NCBI GenBank assembly: GCA_026390775.1
Contig: JAPLFF010000007.1
Coordinates: 620,001-684,000 of the forward strand
DNA from: Ignavibacteriales bacterium
GTDB taxonomy: Bacteria > Bacteroidota > Ignavibacteria > Ignavibacteriales > Melioribacteraceae
Length of the DNA: 64,000 bases
Direction of reading: 5' to 3'
The notes beneath the pieces were generated by a model. The model made no database searches. It had not been told where the DNA came from and saw nothing but the letters and a program-made list of their open reading frames with translations. A program made the position numbers and the translations under genes. Shown piece by piece: positions 42,778 to 52,800 of the stretch (its first letter is position 1; each line of letters begins with the position of its first letter).

Positions 42778-43803
42778 ATGAACATGGATAAGAAGAAAAT
42801 TCTTTTCATTTGCGGATCACTTAATCAGACTTCGATGATGCACCAAATCTCGCAACACTTGCAAGATTTCAATTGTTTCTTTACACCATACTACACCGAT
42901 GGATTTATAAACTATCTTGTCAGCATTGGGTATATAAAATTTTCAATTCTCAACGGACAATTCCGGCTGAAAACAGAAGACTACCTTCGTAAAAATAATC
43001 TTAAACTTGATTACCGCGGAGTCAGCTATGATTATGATTTGATATATACATGCGCTGATTTGATCATGCCTAAAAACATCCGCAAGAAAAAAGTAATTCT
43101 TGTTCAGGAAGGTATGACCGATCCGGAAACATTAATTTTTCATATAGTTAAGTATCTCAAACTTCCGCGTTGGCTTGCAAGCACTTCAACAATGGGAATG
43201 TCGGATCAATATACTTTATTCTGCGTTGCTTCCGAAGGTTATAAAGATTTTTTTATCCGCCGGAAAAGTGTTAAGCCGGAGAAAATTATTGTAACCGGAA
43301 TTCCGAACTTTGATAACCTGCAGCAATTCACAAAGAGCGACTTCCCGCACAAAAATTTTGTCCTTGTAGCAACTTCCGATGCGCGCGAAACTTATAAAGT
43401 TGAGAACAGAAAAAAGTTGATCAACGATTGCGTAAAAATTGCAGCAGGGCGGCAGCTTATTTTCAAACTGCATCCAAACGAAAATATTGAACGCGCAACA
43501 CAAGAGATTAATAAATATGCACCCGGCGCCCTGATCTACACAAGCGGAAATATCAATTACATGATTGCCAACTGCGATGCATTGATCACTCAATTTTCTT
43601 CTACAGTTTATGTAGGCATTTTGTTCGGCAAAGAAGTTCATTCCGCTTTTAATATTGAAGACCTGAAACGAATGATGCCGATTCAAAACAACGGAACATC
43701 AGCAGAAAAAATTGCACGGATTGGAAAACATTTACTTAATTATCCGGACACTTCCTTAAATGAGATTCGCAAAAACTTTGAGTACAATTCTAATATAAGA
43801 TGA
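42778..43803 (+). CDS. GT-B-like glycosyltransferase or sugar epimerase-fold protein
   Basis: A 341-residue protein I cannot assign precisely. It opens with a Rossmann-like KKILFICGSLNQTSMMHQIS, and its C-terminal half has features of GT-B fold enzymes related to CDP-glycerol glycerophosphotransferases and UDP-GlcNAc 2-epimerases: KIIVTGIPNFDNL, IFKLHPNEN and CDALITQFSSTVYVGILFGK. The KLHPNEN and late QFSST positions are where nucleotide-sugar contacts lie in those families. It starts the sugar cluster and overlaps the SpsF gene by four bases. The likeliest roles are transfer of the cluster's sugar to a glycan, or an early sugar-nucleotide step. Confidence 0.6.
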   Translation: MNMDKKKILFICGSLNQTSMMHQISQHLQDFNCFFTPYYTDGFINYLVSIGYIKFSILNGQFRLKTEDYLRKNNLKLDYRGVSYDYDLIYTCADLIMPKNIRKKKVILVQEGMTDPETLIFHIVKYLKLPRWLASTSTMGMSDQYTLFCVASEGYKDFFIRRKSVKPEKIIVTGIPNFDNLQQFTKSDFPHKNFVLVATSDARETYKVENRKKLINDCVKIAAGRQLIFKLHPNENIERATQEINKYAPGALIYTSGNINYMIANCDALITQFSSTVYVGILFGKEVHSAFNIEDLKRMMPIQNNGTSAEKIARIGKHLLNYPDTSLNEIRKNFEYNSNIR

Positions 43804-44603
43804 AAATTATAACAGTCATACAAGCACGAATGTCATCAACCCGGTTGCCCGGTAAAGTGATGCTGCCGTTATTAGGTAAACCGCTTTTGATCCGTATGAT
43901 TGAACGTGTTAACGCAGCAAAACTTGTCGGTAATGTAATAGTTGCTACATCAACAAACGCCGATGATGACAAGATTGAAATTTTATGTAATCAAAATAAT
44001 TTAATTTGTTCACGCGGACATCTAACGGATCTTCTCGACCGGCATTACCAGGTTGCAAAACAATTTAATGCAGAAGCTGTTGTAAAAATTCCTTCCGATT
44101 GTCCTCTCATAGATCCTAAAGTGATTGATAAAGTTATTAAGCATTACATTAATTCCGATGAGTTTGATTTTGTTAGTAATCTACATCCGGCAACTTATCC
44201 TGATGGAAATGACGTTGAAATATTTTCTTTCGAATCACTTGAGTGTGCATGGAAAGATGCAACAAAAGATTACGAACGTGAGCATACAACCCCGTTTATT
44301 TGGGAACACCAAGATGTTTTTTGTGTTGGAAATGTTACTTGGGAAACCGGGTGTGATTTTTCTTCTACTCATAGATGGACGATTGATTTCCCGGAAGATT
44401 ACGAGTTCATAAGAAAAGTTTATGATGAACTCTATTCAAATAATCCCGCTTTTAGTCTGAACGATATATTAACTTTGCTGAAACAAAAACCGGAAATCGC
44501 AGAAATAAATCAGCAGTATCTCGGTAAATACTGGTATGAAAACCATCTTGATGAATTAACTCACATTGACGAATACAAAAATAAAATCAAGAAAAATGAA
44601 TAA
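43800..44603 (+). CDS. SpsF-type acylneuraminate cytidylyltransferase family protein
   Basis: A 267-residue nucleotidyltransferase of the SpsF/NeuA-related family. The opening TVIQARMSSTRLPGKVMLPL is diagnostic, and LDRHYQVAKQFNAEAVVKIPSDCPLIDP carries the metal-binding aspartates. Family members activate acidic sugars with CTP or act as nucleotidyl transfer partners in spore-coat and flagellar glycan pathways. In this cluster it would make the CMP-sugar from the product of the NeuB-type synthase at 50191. It overlaps the previous gene by four bases and the next by eight. Confidence 0.85.
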   Translation: MKIITVIQARMSSTRLPGKVMLPLLGKPLLIRMIERVNAAKLVGNVIVATSTNADDDKIEILCNQNNLICSRGHLTDLLDRHYQVAKQFNAEAVVKIPSDCPLIDPKVIDKVIKHYINSDEFDFVSNLHPATYPDGNDVEIFSFESLECAWKDATKDYEREHTTPFIWEHQDVFCVGNVTWETGCDFSSTHRWTIDFPEDYEFIRKVYDELYSNNPAFSLNDILTLLKQKPEIAEINQQYLGKYWYENHLDELTHIDEYKNKIKKNE

Positions 44604-45453
44604 GAAAAAATTAAAAGATCTTGAGCAGACGGCTTTACGTGTACGTGAGCATATTATTCGAATGAGCGGCAGCGGCGGATGTTTTATCGGCGCATCATTA
44701 TCATGTACCGATCTTATCGTTTATCTCTACAAAGAATTTTTAAATGTCTCACCAAAAAATTTTCAAGATCCGAAACGTGATTATTTTTTCCTTTCGAAAG
44801 GACACGATGTTCCTGCTCTTTACGGAACTTATGTTGAGCTTGGCTGGCTTGAAGAAGGAAGATTAAAGAATCATCTTAAGACAACCGACAACATTTACTG
44901 GCATCCTAACCGTAAAATTCCCGGCATTGAGTTTCATTCCGGTTCACTCGGACATAATCTTTCAGTTGCAATGGGTGTTGCAATTGATTGCAAGTTACGT
45001 AAACAGAAAAATAAAATTGTGGTTGTTGTTGGTGATGGAGAACTTAACGAAGGATCCATGTGGGAAGGCTTGCTTGTTGCCTCTGCATATAAACTTGATA
45101 ACCTTTATATAGTTGTTGACCGGAATCATTTTCAGGCTAACATGCAGACTGAAGATTTGATCCCACTTAAACCGTTAAATAAAAAATTGGAGTCGTTTGG
45201 ATGTAAAGTAAAAAAAATTAACGGACATAATTTTGAACAAATGAAGAAAACTTTTTCGAAAATCCCATTTGAGAAAAATAAAGTCTCGGTAGTAATTGCT
45301 GAGACTGTACGAGGTAAAGGTTTACCAAGTATTGAAAAGCGAGCTGACCGGTGGTTCGTAAATTTCAAAGAAGAAGAGATTGAACAACTGTTAAAAGAAC
45401 TTCACGGCAGTAAAAGAACAAAGTTAACTTCAAAAACTATTGTGGCGAGATAA
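44596..45453 (+). CDS. Transketolase, N-terminal (ThDP-binding) subunit
   Basis: The N-terminal half of a split transketolase. GHDVPALYG, FHSGSLGHNLSVAMGVA and the ThDP/Mg motif VVVVGDGELNEGSMWEG, followed by VDRNHFQ, are all present. ATG at 44596 is chosen over the longer frame at 44566 because it overlaps the SpsF stop by only eight bases and starts at the family's beginning. With the next gene it should form an alpha2beta2 enzyme moving two-carbon units between sugars. A copy within a surface-sugar cluster points to a dedicated sugar-building role, though the precise acceptor is unknown. Confidence 0.92.
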   Translation: MNKKKLKDLEQTALRVREHIIRMSGSGGCFIGASLSCTDLIVYLYKEFLNVSPKNFQDPKRDYFFLSKGHDVPALYGTYVELGWLEEGRLKNHLKTTDNIYWHPNRKIPGIEFHSGSLGHNLSVAMGVAIDCKLRKQKNKIVVVVGDGELNEGSMWEGLLVASAYKLDNLYIVVDRNHFQANMQTEDLIPLKPLNKKLESFGCKVKKINGHNFEQMKKTFSKIPFEKNKVSVVIAETVRGKGLPSIEKRADRWFVNFKEEEIEQLLKELHGSKRTKLTSKTIVAR

Positions 45454-45454
45454 G

Positions 45455-46360
45455 ATGACTTACGAAGATTTAATATTTGAACTGGTCAATAAAGATGATC
45501 GCTACATGATCATGACTTCCGAAAACAGAGCGGCAATGAGAAACATTACGGCTAAAATCAAAAATAATTTTATCGATACCGGAATAACGGAACAGACATT
45601 AATCGGAATGGCAGCAGGACTAGCATTACGCGGTAGAATTCCAATCGTTCATGCACTTGCAACATTCTTAACTATGCGCGCATTTGAGTTTATACGAACA
45701 GATATTGGAATCGGAAATCTGCCGGTTAAGATTGTCGGCGCTGTTCCAGGATTTTTATCAGACGGCAACGGACCAACTCACCAAGCAATAGAAGATGTTT
45801 CTATCATGCGCGGCATCCCGAATGTAAATGTATTTTGTCCGGCAGACGAAGATGACATGCTGAAATGTTTACCAAAAATTTTTGAATACTCTTCCCCATT
45901 TTACATACGTTATAACAATACAAAACCGGTTGTAGAGCACGGCAAATTTGAATTTGGTAAAGCAGAAATTTTTGGCGACGGAAAAGATGTAGCAATTCTT
46001 GTTTATGGATTTCTTTTCGGACAAGCATTCAAAGCAAAAGAGATTTTAGAATCAACGGGCGTTTCTGTTAGACTTATAAACATCCGCACACCAAAACCGA
46101 TTGATGAAGATGCAATTTTGAAAGCTGTCGATGAATGCAAACTTATTGTTACTATTGAAGATCATTTTATAACCGGCGGACTATATTCAATTCTAGCCGA
46201 AGTGCTTTTACGAAACAGAAAAACTGCTAATGTTCTTCCCTTTGCTTTCATGAACAAATGGTTCAAGCCGGGTTTATTAAATGACGTTCTGGAGTATGAG
46301 GGATTTACTGCAGAACAGATAACTCAAAAAATTATTAAGCAGTTAGCTTTTAGCCATTAG
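45455..46360 (+). CDS. Transketolase, C-terminal subunit
   Basis: The pyrimidine-binding and C-terminal half of the split transketolase: FIDTGITEQTLIGMAAGLALRG (with the catalytic Glu), ATFLTMRAFEFIRTDI, HQAIEDVSIMRGIPN, and the C-terminal lobe EDHFITGGLYS. ATG at 45455 follows the previous stop by one base, with GGCGAG ahead. The last residues AFSH and the TAG stop are encoded by the heptanucleotide array at 46341-46368, so the original 3' end may have been replaced when that element arrived. The rest is normal. Confidence 0.92.
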   Translation: MTYEDLIFELVNKDDRYMIMTSENRAAMRNITAKIKNNFIDTGITEQTLIGMAAGLALRGRIPIVHALATFLTMRAFEFIRTDIGIGNLPVKIVGAVPGFLSDGNGPTHQAIEDVSIMRGIPNVNVFCPADEDDMLKCLPKIFEYSSPFYIRYNNTKPVVEHGKFEFGKAEIFGDGKDVAILVYGFLFGQAFKAKEILESTGVSVRLINIRTPKPIDEDAILKAVDECKLIVTIEDHFITGGLYSILAEVLLRNRKTANVLPFAFMNKWFKPGLLNDVLEYEGFTAEQITQKIIKQLAFSH

Positions 46361-46368
46361 CTTTTAGC
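46341..46368 (+). repeat. Left heptanucleotide arm flanking the four-helix-bundle gene
   Basis: Four exact 7-base steps: AGTTAGC, TTTTAGC, CATTAGC, TTTTAGC (consensus NNTTAGC). It supplies the stop codon of the transketolase C subunit. Four complementary units in opposite orientation lie at 46741-46768 on the other side of the gene. Confidence 0.8.
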
Positions 46369-46395
46369 TTCTTAAAAATTAAATGGGAGGGTATT

Positions 46396-46752
46396 ATGAG
46401 AGATTTTAGAAAATTAAAAATTTGGGAAAGATCTCATGCGTTCACACTTAACATTTATAAGACAACTAAGTCTTTCCCAAAAGAGGAATTGTATGGAATC
46501 ACTTCTCAATTACGACGAGCTGCGGCTTCAATACCAACTAATATTGCTGAAGGCTGTGGTAAACAAACAGAGAAAGATTTCGCAAGGTATATAAGTATAT
46601 CAGCTGGATCAACTAGTGAAACGGAATACTTACTTACATTATCAACTGATTTAAAATATTTGAATGAATCTCATTCTAAAGAGCTGATAATCGAGATAAA
46701 CGAAATAAAAAAAATGTTAAATGGACTTTTAATAAAAATTGCTAATAGCTAA
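46396..46752 (+). CDS. Four-helix-bundle protein (S23/23S rRNA intervening-sequence protein family)
   Basis: A 118-residue protein with the family pattern: RDFRKLKIWERSHAF at the start, SQLRRAAASIPTNIAEG in the middle helix pair, FARYISISAGSTSETEYLL later. This is the S23 family of four-helix bundles first known from ORFs within 23S rRNA intervening sequences, and related in fold to the Avd accessory protein of diversity-generating retroelements. It binds nucleic acid in some cases. GGGAGGG lies four bases before the ATG. It interrupts an otherwise metabolic sugar cluster and is bounded by inverted heptad arrays, which encode its last residues and stop. Confidence 0.9.
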   Translation: MRDFRKLKIWERSHAFTLNIYKTTKSFPKEELYGITSQLRRAAASIPTNIAEGCGKQTEKDFARYISISAGSTSETEYLLTLSTDLKYLNESHSKELIIEINEIKKMLNGLLIKIANS

Positions 46753-46768
46753 ACGCTAACAGCTATTA
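46741..46768 (+). repeat. Right heptanucleotide arm flanking the four-helix-bundle gene
   Basis: Four exact 7-base steps GCTAATA, GCTAAAC, GCTAACA, GCTATTA; the reverse complement reads NNTTAGC-like units. It pairs imperfectly with the left arm at 46341-46368, with best alignment of 18 of 21 bases (46341-46361 against 46741-46761). It supplies the stop codon of the four-helix-bundle gene. Confidence 0.8.
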
Positions 46769-46782
46769 GCGGAGTTTTTTCA

Positions 46783-48117
46783 ATGGCTAATAAATTATCT
46801 CTAAACAACAATTTCCCTGAAATAAAAAAATCCAACGAGCTTTACAATCGTGCACTAGGATTAATTCCTTCCGTTACCCAAACACTTGCAAAAGGTCCGG
46901 GACAATGGATAAACGGAGTTGCACCGAAATATTTGGTAAGAGGAAAAGGCTCTCATGTTTGGGATGTTGATAGTAACGAATATATTGATTACATGATGGG
47001 TGTTGGTCCTCTATCTCTTGGTTATGCTTATACAAAAGTTGATGAAGCAATTAAAAAACAATTGGAAGACGGAATTACATTTTCAATGATGCACCCGCTC
47101 GAAGTTGAAGTTGCTGAAATGATTCGGGATATTATTCCGAATGCAGAAGCAGTCCGTTACAGTAAAACCGGGGCTGATGCAACAAGTGCTGCTGTCCGCC
47201 TTGCTCGTGCCTATACGGGAAAAAATAAAATATTATGCTGCGGTTACCACGGCTGGCATGATTGGTATATCGCAGTTACCGCACGCAATCATGGTATTCC
47301 CGAAGCAGTGCAGGCTCTTTCATTTACATTTAATTATAATGATATTGATTCTGTAAAGAATTCAATTGATGACGATGTTGCTGCAATAATTCTTGAGCCG
47401 GTTGTGTTCGCTGAACCGAAAGATAACTTTCTTCACAAGCTTGCAGAGTTATGCGAACAAAAAGGAATAGTTTTGATCTTCGATGAAATGTGGACGGGAT
47501 TTAGAATGGCTCTTGGAGGCGCTCAAGAATATTTTGGAATTACTCCCGATCTCGCAACATATTCTAAAGCAGTTGCTAATGGTATGCCGATTTCAATTCT
47601 AACTGGCAAAAGAAAAATAATGGATCTTGCAGATGAAGATATTTTCTTTTACACAACTTTCGGTGGTGAAGCTTTATCTCTTGCGGCAACTAAAGCGACA
47701 ATTAAGGAATTACGTGATAAGAATGTGCCAAAGTTTTTAAATGATCAAGGAAAAAAATTAAAAGACGGATATAATTCTATTGTTAATAAATTGGGATTGG
47801 ATTTCACAAAAACAATTGGCTACAATTGGCGTTCGATAGCAACGTTTGATGAAAAAGCCGGGGATCCGCTAATTCAAAAATCTTTGATGCAGCAGGAAAT
47901 GATCAAACGCGGAATTCTCTGGCAAGGATTTTTTAATATGTCATTCTCACACAGTGATACAGATGTTGATTACACACTTCAAGCTTTGGAAGAATCTCTT
48001 TTAATTCTGAAAAAAGCTGTTCAAGAAAATAAATTAAAAGAATCATTACACGGGATTCCTGTACAACCTGTGTTTAGGAAAGTTGATAATTTTAATATGA
48101 AGCCAATGAAGAAATAG
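46783..48117 (+). CDS. Class III PLP aminotransferase, glutamate-1-semialdehyde aminotransferase-like
   Basis: A 444-residue fold-type I PLP enzyme related to HemL. PLP contacts are in TGADATSAAVRLARAYTG (near 129-146), the LIFDEMWTGFR motif (Asp234), and the Schiff-base Lys262 in YSKAVANGMPIS. The C-terminus departs from true HemL and it sits in a sugar cluster, so it probably aminates a carbonyl sugar or a ketose intermediate rather than making tetrapyrrole precursor. An SDR gene follows, which could create that carbonyl. GGAG is 10 bases before the ATG, within the tail of the heptad arm region. Confidence 0.85.
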   Translation: MANKLSLNNNFPEIKKSNELYNRALGLIPSVTQTLAKGPGQWINGVAPKYLVRGKGSHVWDVDSNEYIDYMMGVGPLSLGYAYTKVDEAIKKQLEDGITFSMMHPLEVEVAEMIRDIIPNAEAVRYSKTGADATSAAVRLARAYTGKNKILCCGYHGWHDWYIAVTARNHGIPEAVQALSFTFNYNDIDSVKNSIDDDVAAIILEPVVFAEPKDNFLHKLAELCEQKGIVLIFDEMWTGFRMALGGAQEYFGITPDLATYSKAVANGMPISILTGKRKIMDLADEDIFFYTTFGGEALSLAATKATIKELRDKNVPKFLNDQGKKLKDGYNSIVNKLGLDFTKTIGYNWRSIATFDEKAGDPLIQKSLMQQEMIKRGILWQGFFNMSFSHSDTDVDYTLQALEESLLILKKAVQENKLKESLHGIPVQPVFRKVDNFNMKPMKK

Positions 48118-48164
48118 TCAGCGTGTAGAACGAAGAACGTTGAGTTAATTGAAGGATTTTATAA

Positions 48165-48968
48165 ATGGAATTGTTTTCACTCAAAAATAAAGTTGCAATT
48201 GTAACCGGTGCATTAGGATTAATCGGGAAAGAACATTGTAAAGCATTAAGCGAAGCCGGTGCAAATGTTATTGTTGCAGATCTTAATGAAGTCAAGTGCA
48301 TAGAATTTGCAAAGTCGCTTCAAACAAAATCGCTCTGTTTAGAACTTGATGTTACAAATTCGGATTCAATTAAAAATTTGCGGGATAAAGTGCTGAATCA
48401 GTTCGGACATATTGATATCCTCGTTAACAATGCAGCGATAAACGATATGTTCGAAAATCCAAAAGTTGCAACCGAGCAATCAAAGTTTGAAAATTATCCG
48501 CTTGAGCTTTGGCAAAAATCAATTGATGTTAACTTAACCGGAATATTTTTGTGTTCGCAAATTCTTGGAACTGAAATGGCAAAACAGAAAAGCGGAAGTA
48601 TTATTAATATAGCTTCTACATACGGCATTACGGCACCTGACCAATCGCTCTACATAAAAAAAGATGGGACTCAATCATTCTTCAAACCGCCTGCTTATTC
48701 TGCTACTAAAGGCGCAGTTATAATGTTTACTAAATATCTTGCTGCTTATTGGGGAAAAGACGGCGTTCGTGTAAATACTTTAACGCCGGGCGGAGTAGAA
48801 AATAATCAAGATGAATTCTTCATCGAAAAATATTCTTCTAAAACTCCTTTAGGAAGAATGGCAAAACCGACGGATTACAAAGGCGCATTAATTTTTCTTG
48901 CAAGCGACGCATCAAGTTATATGACGGGAGCTAATTTAATAGTAGATGGCGGTTGGACTTGCTGGTAA
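48165..48968 (+). CDS. Short-chain dehydrogenase/reductase
   Basis: A 267-residue classical SDR. The cofactor loop is TGALGLIGKEH near residues 14-24 (TGxxGxIG form), then NNAAIND, SIINIASTYG with the catalytic Ser, YSATKG with Tyr and Lys, and DGGWTCW at the end. A short insertion after the catalytic serine (YIKKDGTQSFFKPP) lengthens the substrate loop. In the cluster it could oxidise a hydroxyl to the keto group for the aminotransferase, or reduce a sugar intermediate. Substrate unknown. Confidence 0.88.
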   Translation: MELFSLKNKVAIVTGALGLIGKEHCKALSEAGANVIVADLNEVKCIEFAKSLQTKSLCLELDVTNSDSIKNLRDKVLNQFGHIDILVNNAAINDMFENPKVATEQSKFENYPLELWQKSIDVNLTGIFLCSQILGTEMAKQKSGSIINIASTYGITAPDQSLYIKKDGTQSFFKPPAYSATKGAVIMFTKYLAAYWGKDGVRVNTLTPGGVENNQDEFFIEKYSSKTPLGRMAKPTDYKGALIFLASDASSYMTGANLIVDGGWTCW

Positions 48969-49037
48969 ATAAATAAGGTTAATCATAATGAAGCGCACCT
49001 ATATCATGAATACCAAGCAGATATTTCTATCCATAAA

Positions 49038-49057
49038 CCCCACGCTTCAGCGTGGGG
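49038..49057. repeat. Left subterminal hairpin of the IS200-type element
   Basis: CCCCACGC at 49038-49045 pairs perfectly with GCGTGGGG at 49050-49057 around TTCA. In IS200/IS605 elements subterminal hairpins are recognised by TnpA as single-strand structures; the left one may also insulate against external transcription. Confidence 0.75.
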
Positions 49058-49103
49058 ATGGCAATACTAAAAACAACACATGGCTTTAGCCATAACAAAA
49101 ATT

Positions 49104-49535
49104 ATGTCAAACGTTAAAATATGGATACATGCAGTTTGGTGTACGAAGAACCATGAGCGCGTTCTCTCTAAAGATGTTAGAAAACAACTTTTTCAGCATG
49201 TGAGGGAGAACGCAAAAGAGAAGCAGATTTATATTGATTTCATTAATGGAGATTTAGATCACATACACTGCTTGTTAGCATTAAATGCAGATATGACGAT
49301 CGCAAAAGTTATGCAACTGATAAAAGGGGAAGCCGCATATTGGGCAAATAAAAACTCGTTGCTAAAATCGAAATTGGAATGGGCGGATGAGTACTTTGCG
49401 GTATCTGTCAGTGAATCAATGCTAAATAAAGTTCGGGACTACATCAAAAGTCAAGAAGAACATCATAAAAAAATAACATTCAAGAGTGAGTATGAGAAAT
49501 TTATAACAAAGTTCGGGTTTAATCATCATGGCTAA
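49104..49535 (+). CDS. tnpA: IS200/IS605-type Y1 transposase (TnpA)
   Basis: A transposase of about 143 residues of the HUH superfamily. The HUH pair is in DLDHIHCLLAL near the middle, and the catalytic tyrosine is in DYIKSQEEHHKK, the classic IS200 motif near the C-terminus. It cuts and rejoins single-stranded DNA. A longer frame begins at 49080, but that ATG is part of the inner inverted repeat; ATG at 49104 matches the usual start of the family (short N-terminus before the first strand VKIWIHAVW). No TnpB or IscB partner is present. The gene is intact and could be active. Confidence 0.9.
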   Translation: MSNVKIWIHAVWCTKNHERVLSKDVRKQLFQHVRENAKEKQIYIDFINGDLDHIHCLLALNADMTIAKVMQLIKGEAAYWANKNSLLKSKLEWADEYFAVSVSESMLNKVRDYIKSQEEHHKKITFKSEYEKFITKFGFNHHG

Positions 49536-49559
49536 AGCCCTAATCTAATTGTTGTGTTA

Positions 49560-49579
49560 CCCCACGATAAATCGTGGGG
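49560..49579. repeat. Right subterminal hairpin of the IS200-type element
   Basis: CCCCACGAT at 49560-49568 pairs perfectly with ATCGTGGGG at 49571-49579 around AA. It shares the CCCCACG base with the left hairpin but has a different apex. Confidence 0.75.
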
Positions 49580-49646
49580 TTAATTCATGAAGTACGCAGT
49601 ATTATGATGAACCTTAAATATATTCTCAGTTACTTAGGAACTTAAA

Positions 49647-50207
49647 ATGGCAAAGAAAAAACTTACAAAAAAACAGCTATTAAAACGTGCTTCAAAAATA
49701 AAATTAGTATTAGCAGATTGCGACGGCGTTTTAACCGATACAGGTGTTTACTACTCTTCTCAGGGAGAAATGATGAAACGTTTTTCTATTCGTGACGGAA
49801 TGGGTGTTGAACGTTTAAGAAAATATGCCAACGTTGAAACCGGAATAGTAACCGGTGAAGACACTGAAATTGTACGTGTGCGTGCTAACAAACTTCAAAT
49901 GAAAGAAATACATTTGGGAATCAATCGTAAAGATGAAGTATTCAATGAAATATTATCCAGAAGAAATTTAAAAGCGGAAGAAGTTGCTTACATTGGTGAT
50001 GACTCAAACGATGTTACCATAATGAAACTTGCCGGATTAACAGCCTGTCCCAAAGACGCAACTATGTTTGCTAAAAATATTGCCGACATTATTGTTGATA
50101 GTAAAGGCGGCAACGGAGCGTTCCGTGATTTTGCAGAATTAATCATCGAAGCTAAAACAAAAAAGAAAGTATTTAGAAAGGACGATAGTAATGCCAAACA
50201 AAGTTAA
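49647..50207 (+). CDS. KdsC-type HAD phosphatase
   Basis: A 186-residue C0-type HAD phosphatase of the KDO 8-phosphate phosphatase family. The nucleophile motif is LVLADCDGVLTDTG near residues 22-35, the second motif is VTGEDTE, and the Mg-binding end is YIGDDSNDVTIMKLAG. Such enzymes dephosphorylate ulosonate phosphates (KDO-8-P, KDN-9-P, NeuNAc-9-P). Its 3' end overlaps the NeuB-type gene by 17 bases, a coupling that suggests it acts on that enzyme's product. The overall order resembles known phosphorylated nonulosonate routes. Confidence 0.88.
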   Translation: MAKKKLTKKQLLKRASKIKLVLADCDGVLTDTGVYYSSQGEMMKRFSIRDGMGVERLRKYANVETGIVTGEDTEIVRVRANKLQMKEIHLGINRKDEVFNEILSRRNLKAEEVAYIGDDSNDVTIMKLAGLTACPKDATMFAKNIADIIVDSKGGNGAFRDFAELIIEAKTKKKVFRKDDSNAKQS

Positions 50208-51084
50208 GATCGGTAACAAATTCATAGGCGAAGATCAGCCCGTTTATGTTATTGCTGAGATTGGAATCAATCACAACGGCTCTTTGGAATTAGCAAAAAG
50301 ACTGATTGACGGAGCTGTATATGCCGGATGTGATGCTGTAAAATTTCAAAAACGAACACCTGAACTTTGTGTTCCTAAAGATCAATGGTATGTTGAGCGC
50401 GATACACCATGGGGAAGAATAACTTATATCGAATATCGTCACAAAGTTGAATTTGGATTTGAAGAATTTCTTGAGATAGACGGTTATTGTAGAGAAAAAG
50501 GAATTGATTGGTTCGCTTCACCGTGGGATGAAAACTCTGTAGATTTTTTAGAAAAGTTCAAACCTTTGATTTACAAGGTTCCGTCCGCATCTTTAACTGA
50601 TCATTCTCTTCTTCGAAAAATAAAAGCAACAGGCAGACCAGTTATCATATCAACCGGTATGTCAACTATTCAGGAAATTGAAGAAGCTGTTTTGATTCTC
50701 GGTACCGAAAATCTTTTGATCGCACAAGCAACATCTACATATCCGTGTCCTGTTGAGGAATTAAATTTACAGGTAATCGGGACTTACAAAGAAATTTTTC
50801 CTGAAGTTCCTATAGGTTATTCAGGGCATGAGACAGGTTTGTCGCCAACGCTTGCTGCCGTTGCAATTGGGGCAAGATTTGTTGAACGGCATATTACGCT
50901 CGATCGTGCAATGTGGGGAACCGATCAAGCAGCATCGGTGGAAGTATCGGGTATGCAGAAGCTTGTTCATGATATACGGGATATCGAAAAAGCTCTTGGT
51001 GACGGAATAAAAAAAGTTTATGAAAGTGAACAGAAAAATATTGAAAAACTTAGAAGAGTAAAACCAAATATTACCGTTTCCTAA
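50191..51084 (+). CDS. NeuB/SpsE-type N-acetylneuraminate synthase family protein without SAF domain
   Basis: A 297-residue PEP-condensing synthase of the NeuB TIM-barrel family: VIAEIGINHNGSLELAKRLIDGA, AVKFQKRTPE, VPSASLTDHSLL, STGMSTIQEIEEAV, and GYSGHETGLSPTLAAVAIGA with FVERHITLDRAMWGTDQ. It would join PEP to an aldose or acylamino aldose, perhaps as a phosphate, to give a 3-deoxy-ulosonic acid. NeuB proteins usually have a C-terminal SAF (antifreeze-like) domain giving about 340 residues; here the protein ends soon after the barrel, which suggests a variant branch. It ends the cluster. Confidence 0.88.
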   Translation: MPNKVKIGNKFIGEDQPVYVIAEIGINHNGSLELAKRLIDGAVYAGCDAVKFQKRTPELCVPKDQWYVERDTPWGRITYIEYRHKVEFGFEEFLEIDGYCREKGIDWFASPWDENSVDFLEKFKPLIYKVPSASLTDHSLLRKIKATGRPVIISTGMSTIQEIEEAVLILGTENLLIAQATSTYPCPVEELNLQVIGTYKEIFPEVPIGYSGHETGLSPTLAAVAIGARFVERHITLDRAMWGTDQAASVEVSGMQKLVHDIRDIEKALGDGIKKVYESEQKNIEKLRRVKPNITVS

Positions 51085-51154
51085 TTATGGTGGAAAAAAT
51101 CTCTAATATTTTTTTTCAGACAGTTTGTTTTTGTGTTTAGAAGTTTTAAAAGTA

Positions 51155-51176
51155 GGAGCTGAAAATATTCAGCCCC
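51155..51176 (-). terminator. Putative terminator after the MuiA-like gene
   Basis: GCTGAA at 51158-51163 pairs with TTCAGC at 51168-51173, extended by G/C pairs, with loop AATA. It lies 20 bases past the minus-strand stop at 51196, with moderate T content after. It may serve both convergent genes. Confidence 0.5.
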
Positions 51177-51195
51177 CAACTAGTTGAAATGAATT

Positions 51196-52800
51196 TTACA
51201 ATCCTTGGATTTGTTTATCTCCCGGGTACTTTACTGAATAAACCATCTTTTTAGAAATTGATTTCCCCGCTTCAATTTCAATCGCCCATTTTAATTTTCC
51301 GCTTTGCTGATCATAGACAGCACCGGATGAATCAATCATCTTCACAACGATATCTTCATTCTTGGAGATTGGGATTTGATCTTCTACAACAATTTTAACT
51401 GATGCTTTTTTGTTGTTCTTAATTTTAATATCGAACGCAAATGTTCTCTCAACATTACTGCTCAAAAATTTATCTTCCGAAAAATCTTTCAGCACATCGC
51501 GGGAGACAGAAATATTCTGATCTCTGCCGAGTGACAACGAAAGTGTATCTTTTGTAGTTGCCGGATTAATCAAAGATTGCCCGACATAAGAGTTTTCGAA
51601 ATAGATGTTGGCTTGCCCGGGTAATAAATTATAATCTGTCCAATCTGTTAAACGTGCGACAAGAAATGCGTTGTTGTCCAGTTTTGGAGAGGCATAATAT
51701 TCATACTTAACGGGGACGGAAAAATCCTGCAGTGCAACCGAATGCGGTTTGCTATCTGAAGGAATTGAATATTTTATTGTTGGAGTAAATTCAACCGAGA
51801 GTTGTGTTTCAACAACCTCAAAATAATTTGCCATTGTTTCTGCTTGAGATGCTTCGTCTTTAATTGGCATTTGTGCCTGTGAAACAACAGCGTTTGCAGC
51901 AACACCGGATTTCATCATTTCACGATATGCAACCGGACGCATAAAATCTATAAACCAAGGATAAAGTTCCGGCTTATTGTTATTTACATTTGGGTTTCTT
52001 GTGGAAAGAACGATCTCAATATTTTTCCAATCGAATCCGCTGTTCTGCCAAACATTTGCCTTGTAACTCAATTGTGCGGGGGAATTTATTTTATCAACTC
52101 TAACATCGTAAGCAGGTTGCCACCCGGCGTCATAAATCAAATATGATAGATCTATTTCAACCGTACCTGAAGTTTTACCTGAAACTGTAACTACAATTTC
52201 ATTAGTTGGTTTGTTTAATTGATTGTTCAGTTCATTCAATTGATTTTGTATCCGTTCAATATTCTTCTGGGTTTTTTTTGCATTCAATGTTAGATCGAAC
52301 ATTTTATTTTTTATTTCCGGAAGACGCTTCCGGTAGAACTCAGCCATTTTCTGTAACTCCGTAACAGAAACGCCGACTTTTTCATTTCCAATATTTTTAT
52401 TTGCGAGGATTAATTCAATTTCGGATTTCAAAACATCTATTTCATTTTGATTAAAAGCTAAAGATTTATTCTGTGATTCGAGAGAATCTTCCAGCATTTT
52501 TATCTGAGGAGTTTTTTCCGCAATGCGTAAATAGTCGAAGCGCTGGACAACCGACATAATGATTGCGTCTCCTTTTGCCGAAACATTAATGCTGTTTCTA
52601 TCAATGTTAGATGCCAATCCGGTAAAAACAATATCATTAAAACCTTTATCAACTTTAACGCTTGCAGAATAACTTAATTGAGCACCTCTCAAAAAAATCT
52701 TAACGTTCAAGAGAGACGGTTTAACTAAAATATTATCTGCGGCAAAAAAAGTCTGTGAAATAATTAAAGCGGTAATAAAAGTATAAATAACTTTTTTCAT
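51196..52800 (-). CDS. Mucoidy inhibitor MuiA-like exported protein (DUF4140/DUF4139)
   Basis: A 534-residue exported protein. After a signal peptide (about residues 1-20, TFFAAD) comes a DUF4140-like beta domain (VFLRGAQLSYSASVKVDKG-like, about 30-125), a long coiled coil (about 95-195, ELQKMAEF and ERIQNQLNELNNQLN), and a DUF4139 beta-rich domain (about 215-534) with SYLIYDAGWQPAYDVRVD and YSVKYPGDKQIQGL at the end. This is the MuiA architecture; E. coli-type members were named for reducing mucoid phenotype, mechanism unknown. Divergent from the sensor kinase at 53004 across a 203-base gap. Confidence 0.85.
   Translation of the reverse strand: MKKVIYTFITALIISQTFFAADNILVKPSLLNVKIFLRGAQLSYSASVKVDKGFNDIVFTGLASNIDRNSINVSAKGDAIIMSVVQRFDYLRIAEKTPQIKMLEDSLESQNKSLAFNQNEIDVLKSEIELILANKNIGNEKVGVSVTELQKMAEFYRKRLPEIKNKMFDLTLNAKKTQKNIERIQNQLNELNNQLNKPTNEIVVTVSGKTSGTVEIDLSYLIYDAGWQPAYDVRVDKINSPAQLSYKANVWQNSGFDWKNIEIVLSTRNPNVNNNKPELYPWFIDFMRPVAYREMMKSGVAANAVVSQAQMPIKDEASQAETMANYFEVVETQLSVEFTPTIKYSIPSDSKPHSVALQDFSVPVKYEYYASPKLDNNAFLVARLTDWTDYNLLPGQANIYFENSYVGQSLINPATTKDTLSLSLGRDQNISVSRDVLKDFSEDKFLSSNVERTFAFDIKIKNNKKASVKIVVEDQIPISKNEDIVVKMIDSSGAVYDQQSGKLKWAIEIEAGKSISKKMVYSVKYPGDKQIQGL

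Follow-up and report, generated by a model that had tools for sequence, protein, structure and literature searches.

A conserved operon of Bacteroidota that joins a dedicated, replaceable transketolase to ulosonic-acid-type genes

RESULTS AND DISCUSSION

An eight-gene operon with its own transketolase

The DNA analyzed here is a stretch of 64,000 nucleotides (the window) from an Ignavibacteriales bacterium (assembly GCA_026390775.1, contig JAPLFF010000007.1, forward strand positions 620,001 to 684,000). On its + strand, positions 42778 to 51084 hold a set of eight genes in which a split transketolase and a class III aminotransferase (AT3) stand beside genes for a putative cytidine monophosphate (CMP)-ulosonate. 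The operon itself is secure as a conserved set of eight to ten genes in environmental bacteria. Equally secure is the need of its pathway for a specialized, nonclassical transketolase, because a fused enzyme replaces the split pair in other carriers of AT3. We tentatively propose, with a probability of about 0.38, that one branch, leading to a CMP-ulosonate, joins another, made up of the transketolase and the aminotransferase, to give a membrane aminolipid that bears an ulosonic acid; all of its substrates, the order of its steps, and the lipid end product are what we infer. The eight genes are as follows.

42778..43803, + strand: GT-B fold protein, 341 amino acids (AlphaFold model, Foldseek, and VIA-align; sequence families weak)
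43800..44603, + strand: SpsF-type CTP:sugar-acid cytidylyltransferase, 267 amino acids (PF02348, E = 1e-34)
44596..45453, + strand: TktN, N-terminal thiamine diphosphate (ThDP)-binding subunit of the split transketolase, ATG at 44596 (PF00456, E = 7.8e-25; nearest solved structure 6yak, a split transketolase)
45455..46360, + strand: TktC, C-terminal subunit of the split transketolase, ATG at 45455 (PF02779/PF02780; nearest solved structure 6yaj)
46783..48117, + strand: AT3, class III aminotransferase of the PRK06209/glutamate-1-semialdehyde (GSA) aminomutase-like group (PF00202; NF004856 at 400 bits, below the cut-off of 486)
48165..48968, + strand: short-chain dehydrogenase/reductase (SDR) type oxidoreductase, 267 amino acids (PF13561, E = 1.4e-51; best NCBIfam match PRK09186)
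49647..50207, + strand: KdsC-family phosphatase of the haloacid dehalogenase (HAD) type with the 3-deoxy-D-glycero-D-galacto-nonulosonate (KDN)-9-phosphatase signature TGExTEIVRxRAxKL (TIGR01670 at 134 bits, above the cut-off of 107)
50191..51084, + strand: short NeuB-type phosphoenolpyruvate (PEP)-condensing synthase, 297 amino acids (PF03102, E = 1e-77, as the sole domain match)

Every open reading frame (ORF) is intact, and Pfam and NCBIfam support the family assignments. The genes overlap by 4 bases between GT-B and SpsF (43800 to 43803), by 8 bases between SpsF and TktN (SpsF stop at 44601 to 44603 versus the TktN ATG at 44596), and by 17 bases between KdsC and NeuB (50191 to 50207). The one-strand gene run, families, and overlaps reported by a first-pass annotation of this DNA were thus confirmed. 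Its gene list holds in order, except that the run is interrupted by a 23S rRNA intervening-sequence protein (IVP) ORF and a Y1 transposase. All eight genes gave dN/dS values of 0.01 to 0.14 against a locus of the same genus (L038; L, G, and f numbers are our labels for loci, genomes, and families). The window genome comprises 3.01 Mb, and its TktN finds its best matches in named records in metagenome bins of Melioribacter/Ignavibacteria.

Conservation of the operon

TktN orthologues, defined by at least 56% identity (the next match drops to 41%), were present in 32 of 198 genomes sampled from the phylum. All eight genes stand in the same order in 17 of the 31 other phylum loci; eight more keep the order minus KdsC in that place, with a KdsC homologue upstream in one of them, and six are partial or dispersed. 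A scan of a genome collection yielded at least 80 loci. The full set of eight stands in order in 46 of the 80 listed; in two of the 46, one more homologue lies upstream. Many of the other loci break off at a contig end. Among the matches listed, the scan loci belong to Ignavibacteria, Kapabacteria, Chlorobi, and Bacteroidetes (Hymenobacter, Mucilaginibacter, Chitinophaga, Puia, Taibaiella, and others) and also to metagenome bins labeled Anaerolineae and Gemmatimonadetes, in which misbinning is possible. The gene order, whose conservation in relatives had been left to be checked, is therefore kept across both sets, which rules out a chance neighborhood.

The same eight genes, with the last two swapped so that NeuB precedes the HAD gene, are found on a plasmid of the gammaproteobacterium Methylomagnum ishizawai (L036). 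Because the whole cluster is plasmid borne, horizontal transfer is suggested. This plasmid is 274 kb in size, and its cluster adjoins lplT and lipid acyltransferase genes. Two further variations were seen: in UTCHB1 (L125), two large ORFs of 689 and 779 amino acids, perhaps an insertion, separate TktN from TktC, and some genomes of family f14 (G255, G298, G312, G334, and G373) have a second copy of TktN elsewhere.

The transketolase is dedicated and replaceable

The window genome encodes a separate classical transketolase of 672 amino acids, and a classical enzyme was present in 20 of 20 genomes examined. In this survey, low-scoring matches of about 900 and about 640 amino acids were counted as E1- and DXS-like by length alone. 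A housekeeping role of the split pair was rejected in view of the classical enzymes, and the earlier view that the cluster has a transketolase of its own withstood the objection that the pair could be the only one in the cell. A second, nonclassical transketolase was found in all 16 operon carriers and in none of four noncarriers.

Among 245 genomes of the class, AT3 was detected in 77, TktN in 65, and TktF, a fused transketolase of about 656 amino acids that is distinct from the split pair, in 14. The AT3 genomes divide into 61 with TktN, 14 with TktF, and two with neither (G019 and G392, the latter 67% complete); a transketolase of one form or the other is thus coinherited with AT3 in 75 of 77 cases, the split pair being its neighbor in the operon. 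TktN is missing from every one of the 14 TktF genomes, and each of them has AT3. In the 180 TktN-negative genomes, TktF occurs in 14 of 16 AT3 carriers versus 0 of 164 others, a co-occurrence scored by Fisher tests that ignore the relatedness of the genomes. Within family f1, TktF is present in seven of eight TktN-less AT3 carriers and in none of six noncarriers; the corresponding values for family f2 are six of six and none of eight. TktN without AT3 was seen in four genomes (G301, G366, G373, and G388).

Six relatives (L154 to L159) retain the genes for GT-B, SpsF, AT3, SDR, KdsC, NeuB, and a hydroxylase and lack TktN and TktC. Five of them have TktF elsewhere in the genome; G019, the sixth, has no more than another gene of the split type (L179). 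In G343, TktF is placed between SpsF and AT3, the site that the split pair occupies in other genomes. We read this as natural replacement of the split pair by TktF in some carriers. In a tree of transketolase N parts, TktN and TktF each formed one supported group, their mutual relation being unsure due to long branches.

Acceptor site of the transketolase

The ThDP, pyrimidine, and C-terminal domains and the catalytic glutamate (E411 in Escherichia coli) are present according to Pfam and alignment. Acceptor-site columns were read from an alignment to the classical transketolase of the same genome. TktN has Phe29 at the column of yeast H30 and Trp252/Phe253 at that of H263 (nine aligned rows), and the motifs GGCF and RADRWF occur in all 27 aligned TktN sequences. 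Both histidines are retained in seven other split transketolases. An arginine or lysine at the R528 column is absent from TktC and TktF and present in six other split C subunits. As far as the alignments indicate, the distinctive acceptor-site changes are those at the R528 column and at the two TktN histidines only. We take the acceptor-site residues, including yeast H30 and H263, to act on the acceptor carbonyl, the acceptor C2 hydroxyl, and the acceptor phosphate; a literature search for these roles found nothing. If the presumed roles hold, the loss of the histidines in TktN and of the R528-column residue in TktC and TktF points to an unusual acceptor, and the customary phosphorylated aldose would be unlikely.

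The CMP-ulosonate module

NeuB matched the barrel domain PF03102, and no C-terminal SAF/antifreeze-like domain was matched in its 297 amino acids; all 19 aligned operon members are equally short. NeuB falls under the cut-off of the N-acetylneuraminate synthase equivalog TIGR03569 (264 versus 399.65 bits), and the phosphatase falls under that of the KDN-9-phosphate phosphatase model NF058599 (154 versus 180 bits). By alignment, the phosphatase possesses equivalents of E56, R64, and K67 (TGEDTEIVRVRANKL versus TGEKTEIVRRRAEKL of 3e81), whereas the 3-deoxy-D-manno-octulosonate 8-phosphate (Kdo8P) phosphatase 1j8d has SGRDS at the signature position. Presumably, 3e81/3e8m is KDN-9-phosphate phosphatase (the structure match is listed as acylneuraminate cytidylyltransferase), and we likewise assume the roles of the three residues. 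The signature would imply a phosphorylated ulosonate as the substrate. Kdo synthesis is not favored, the signature being of the KDN type and not of the Kdo8P type. The module of NeuB, KdsC-type phosphatase, and SpsF that had been recognized beside the transketolase is supported by these families.

Two groups of genes

Eight genomes of family f20, which we guess to be putative Chlorobiaceae, have a NeuB orthologue at 68 to 71% identity, no TktN orthologue, and AT3 matches of only 36 to 39%. SpsF had no match in seven of the eight, and NeuB adjoins a HAD gene in three of the five loci fetched (L166 to L168). Because these genomes keep NeuB without orthologues of TktN and AT3, it is suggested that NeuB may use a substrate independent of both, such as a plain hexose. 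The first-pass annotation had assigned to the transketolase, aminotransferase, and SDR the making of the NeuB substrate, an order of steps that can be taken only as a hypothesis.

Of the six genomes with a broken-up operon, four belong to f33 and two to f18. In five of the six loci, NeuB has kept its neighbor F7, a di-iron membrane protein of the FA_hydroxylase family, in the arrangements KdsC-NeuB-F7 (L163 and L164), NeuB-F7 (L165), and SDR-KdsC-NeuB-F7 (L171 and L172), L162 being the exception. AT3 is close to TktN-TktC in both f18 genomes and in two of the four f33 genomes (L051 and L054). In f18, SpsF is grouped with TktN/TktC and AT3, and SDR-KdsC-NeuB lies elsewhere. Judged from the f20 genomes and the broken-up operons, NeuB and the phosphatase seem to form one unit and the transketolase and AT3 another. 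A second NeuB copy of 71% identity lies away from the operon in two relatives (L160/G035 and L161/G047).

AT3 and the GT-B protein

AT3 is most similar to members of the PRK06209 group and to GSA aminomutases. A search for AT3 in phages returned 14 records, all below 60% identity and, in the ten listed, at most 37%.

The GT-B gene gave only weak family matches (E up to 0.1), namely, Glyphos_transf in 18 and Epimerase_2 in 34 of 36 family members. Its AlphaFold model (pLDDT 91) has a GT-B fold. The GT-B-like call of the first pass accordingly stands on the model, and sequence families match it weakly. The top four Foldseek rows are enzymes that use CDP- or CMP-linked substrates (TarL, a CMP capsule enzyme, and TagF), with TM-scores below 0.5, whereas VIA-align ranked UDP-GlcNAc 2-epimerases first (Z up to 17.9), with TagF at 15.2 and a polysialyltransferase at 14.3. 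The one weak sequence match in the PDB is the TagF-like Cps3D (E = 0.0015). Judged by its model, the protein is likely a transferase that uses a CMP-sugar.

Hydroxylase, SMR, and acyltransferase neighbors

Neighboring ORFs were clustered over 106 unique loci of 112, and positions were counted in the 74 loci whose sequence runs on for 2.5 kb or more past NeuB. F7 follows NeuB in 63 of the 74, and F9, an SMR-family protein, is present in 36. Across genomes, F7 occurs in 67 of 77 AT3 carriers versus 2 of 168 others. In L155 and L183, an ORF of 647 to 650 amino acids of unassigned kind sits between NeuB and F7.

When 148 loci were searched, 15 gave acyltransferase matches. Eight distinct ones (L043, L047/L097, L048/L151, L049, L080/L189, L091, L135, and L182; paired labels denote one genome twice) encode an OlsF-like protein (Acetyltransf_5 plus Acyltransf_2) close to the operon, and L160 encodes one beside its second copy of NeuB. 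In L036, L044, and L061, GNAT and LPLAT are separate genes in the vicinity of the operon. A link to the Chlorobium aminoglycosphingolipid was considered and not used, as the literature search yielded only a citation and linked nothing to these genes.

Proposed pathway

In the first of the two proposed branches, NeuB would form a KDN-like nonulosonate-9-phosphate from a hexose phosphate and PEP, the KdsC-family enzyme would take off the phosphate, and SpsF would form the CMP-ulosonate. In the second, the dedicated transketolase would put a two-carbon ketol unit on an unusual aldehyde, AT3 would turn the resulting dihydroxyketone into an amine, with chemistry as in azinomycin synthesis (AziC5/C6 and then AziC1 or AziC7), and SDR would adjust the redox state. 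The GT-B protein would link the ulosonate to the amine-bearing acceptor. A membrane aminolipid with an ulosonic acid is suggested because the operon is accompanied in relatives by F7 and F9 and, in the smaller part of them, by N/O-acyltransferases of the OlsF type. It is unlikely that the product represents an entire new lipid class, that is, a ganglioside-like aminolipid with a backbone made by transketolase and aminotransferase, acylation by OlsF, di-iron hydroxylation, an ulosonic cap, and SMR-type transport.

Several observations weigh against the two-branch proposal. F7 was not found in the whole window genome, nor after NeuB (51084 to 51196), although same-genus relatives have it, and the F7 step is thus dispensable in the window organism. 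The window's cluster has no acyltransferase, and acyltransferase neighbors are limited to a minority of loci. Seven of the eight f20 genomes with NeuB only have another split transketolase (33 to 36% identity), perhaps a housekeeping enzyme. The supposed units are also not strictly kept: AT3 lies on a contig other than that of TktN/TktC in two of the four f33 genomes, and SDR goes with KdsC-NeuB in the f18 genomes (L171 and L172). TktF keeps both acceptor-site histidines (six rows, L177 included). The loss of H469 and the asparagine at D477 in TktC (18 of 18 rows) say little, because these positions also differ in the majority of the six further split C subunits in the alignment. The GT-B protein might, less likely, be a NeuC-like epimerase on the evidence of the structural comparison and of the weak family matches. 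The nearest outside relatives of AT3 (42 to 45%) are found among sugar-catabolic-looking genes in haloarchaea, on plasmids L193, L194, and L195 near genes for sulfatase, Gfo/Idh, ceramidase-like, and DegT aminotransferase proteins; this neighborhood favors a sugar as the substrate, as far as gene context can indicate. Finally, AT3 and NeuB occur together in 76 of 77 AT3 genomes.

The last co-occurrence would also fit a single linear path, in which AT3 and SDR would convert a transketolase-made ketose to an amino-aldose, followed by NeuB with PEP, KdsC, and SpsF, to give an amino-ulosonate for a surface glycan. We consider it rather unlikely. It agrees with the presence of all enzymes together in a fixed gene order and with the sugar genes beside AT3 relatives, and the aminoshikimate route, in the portions of PMC8788734 and PMC4551226 available, offers a parallel in the PEP condensation of a transketolase product. 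However, the f20 genomes hold NeuB orthologues without those of TktN or AT3, no isomerase is encoded among the ten ORFs of the window cluster, and F7 and the acyltransferases are left unexplained. Moreover, TktC and TktF lack the R528-column residue, yet the HAD signature would imply a phosphorylated ulosonate.

The boldest form of the two-branch proposal makes the second branch a sphingoid-like aminodiol built from a fatty aldehyde, with a ganglioside-like lipid as the product. Ketol transfer and transamination would yield a 2-amino-1,3-diol, aromatic residues of TktN replace both histidines presumed to contact the acceptor carbonyl, and F7 and OlsF-type proteins are neighbors. As AT3 relatives adjoin sugar genes and TktF retains both histidines, we regard it as improbable.

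The reverse order, in which SDR would oxidize the free ulosonate to an aldehyde that is then extended by two carbons by transketolase and aminated by AT3 to a longer amino-ulosonate, the substrate for activation by SpsF, appears at least as doubtful. An acceptor site without the R528-column arginine or lysine would suit a dephosphorylated sugar acid, and SDR accompanies KdsC-NeuB in f18; in the same genomes, however, SpsF lies with TktN/TktC and AT3, apart from that group. SpsF would also have to take an eleven-carbon acid, for which we know of no precedent.

An ordinary sialic-acid-like (nonulosonate) capsule or lipopolysaccharide cluster with a housekeeping or hitchhiking transketolase pair is very improbable: NeuB, SpsF, and HAD proteins are its standard parts, but all 20 genomes examined have a classical transketolase, TktF replaces the pair in 14 carriers and in no noncarrier among 245 genomes, and neither an NDP-sugar 4,6-dehydratase nor a DegT aminotransferase is encoded among the ten ORFs at 42778 to 51084 (the rest of the genome was not searched).

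Relation to known systems

In Bacteroides, KDN is made by KDN-9-phosphate synthase, the phosphatase BT1713, and CMP-KDN synthetase. The operon resembles this route in its NeuB-type synthase, its HAD phosphatase of the C0 type bearing equivalents of E56, R64, and K67, and its cytidylyltransferase. To our knowledge, neither a transketolase nor a class III aminotransferase nor an SDR takes part in the Bacteroides route; a further difference is that the phosphatase of the operon scores below the curated KDN-9-phosphate phosphatase cut-off.

Similarly to sialic, legionaminic, and pseudaminic acid clusters, the operon has NeuB, an SpsF/NeuA-like enzyme, and HAD or GT-B partners; unlike them, it lacks an NDP-sugar dehydratase and a DegT aminotransferase, and its NeuB has no SAF domain. 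A Solidesulfovibrio plasmid (L037:3537-16346) carries a different split transketolase near NeuB, PseF, PseB, PseC, and SDR genes, which is another cluster type.

Ornithine and glycine lipids are made by OlsF or by OlsB/OlsA. In some relatives, the operon adjoins Acetyltransf_5 and acyltransferase genes, which recall this synthesis, whereas neither OlsF nor OlsB/OlsA is named among the ten ORFs of the window (the genome was not searched for them).

In the azinomycin/vazabitide pathway to diaminodihydroxyheptanoate (DADH), the split transketolase AziC5/C6 is followed by an aminotransferase, according to the available part of PMC9570651. Two-carbon extension of an aldehyde other than a sugar phosphate, followed by a pyridoxal phosphate-dependent aminotransferase, is the likeness to our proposal; the substrate there is an acetylated or carrier-bound glutamate and, within that same part, NeuB and SpsF are missing. 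Among the ten ORFs of the window cluster, there are no glutamate kinase/reductase or carrier genes. An azinomycin/vazabitide-like cluster (L191) has a DegT-type aminotransferase, as opposed to the class III AT3 of the operon.

In the aminoshikimate route, as far as the accessible portions of PMC8788734 and PMC4551226 describe it, a transketolase forms imino-erythrose-4-phosphate, which RifH condenses with PEP. Here, too, a split transketolase (rif15A/15B, in 3-amino-5-hydroxybenzoate [AHBA] synthesis) stands ahead of a PEP-condensing synthase and leads to an amino-ulosonate phosphate. The synthase belongs to another family, the product is aromatic, and the portions seen describe no CMP activation. 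Rifamycin synthesis persists after deletion of rif15A/B, as stated in the same portion of PMC4551226. The ten ORFs of the window cluster include neither a 3-deoxy-D-arabino-heptulosonate 7-phosphate (DAHP)-type synthase nor an AHBA synthase. Rif15-type enzymes were sought among three Streptomyces plasmid matches, and none was found: L190 is unannotated, L191 resembles an azinomycin/vazabitide cluster, and the genes of L192 are for sugar degradation.

No description of the cluster was found in the open-access literature, and the available parts of PMC11766843 and PMC12342839 hold nothing of it. The possible novelty of the route suggested in the first pass can stand in this respect, but split transketolases have the precedents excerpted from PMC8788734, PMC4551226, and PMC9570651. 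The component families are known; what is apparently undescribed is the way in which they are combined, the conservation of this set, and its dedicated transketolase that can be replaced. Different classes of Bacteroidota share the pathway, and records from other phyla show it too. If the proposal is true, transketolase would be newly used in the making of surface sugars or lipids, and its replacement provides an unusually clear natural test of which step the pathway cannot spare. Carriers include the culture-type genera Mucilaginibacter, Hymenobacter, Chitinophaga, Taibaiella, and Puia, so that the product is findable.

Insertions in the window operon

Two features within the gene run are insertions outside the pathway.

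46396..46752, + strand: 23S-rRNA-IVP/four-helix-bundle ORF (PF05635, E = 6.6e-41)
49038..49579, + strand: IS200-type element with a Y1 transposase at 49080 to 49535, flanked by CCCCACG..CGTGGGG hairpins

The former lies between TktC and AT3 and the latter between SDR and KdsC; both are absent at those sites in L038. IVP ORFs also occur within or beside the operon in L046, L050, L074, and L108. The CCCCACG/CGTGGGG hairpin pattern occurs just twice in the whole window, on the two sides of the Y1 transposase.

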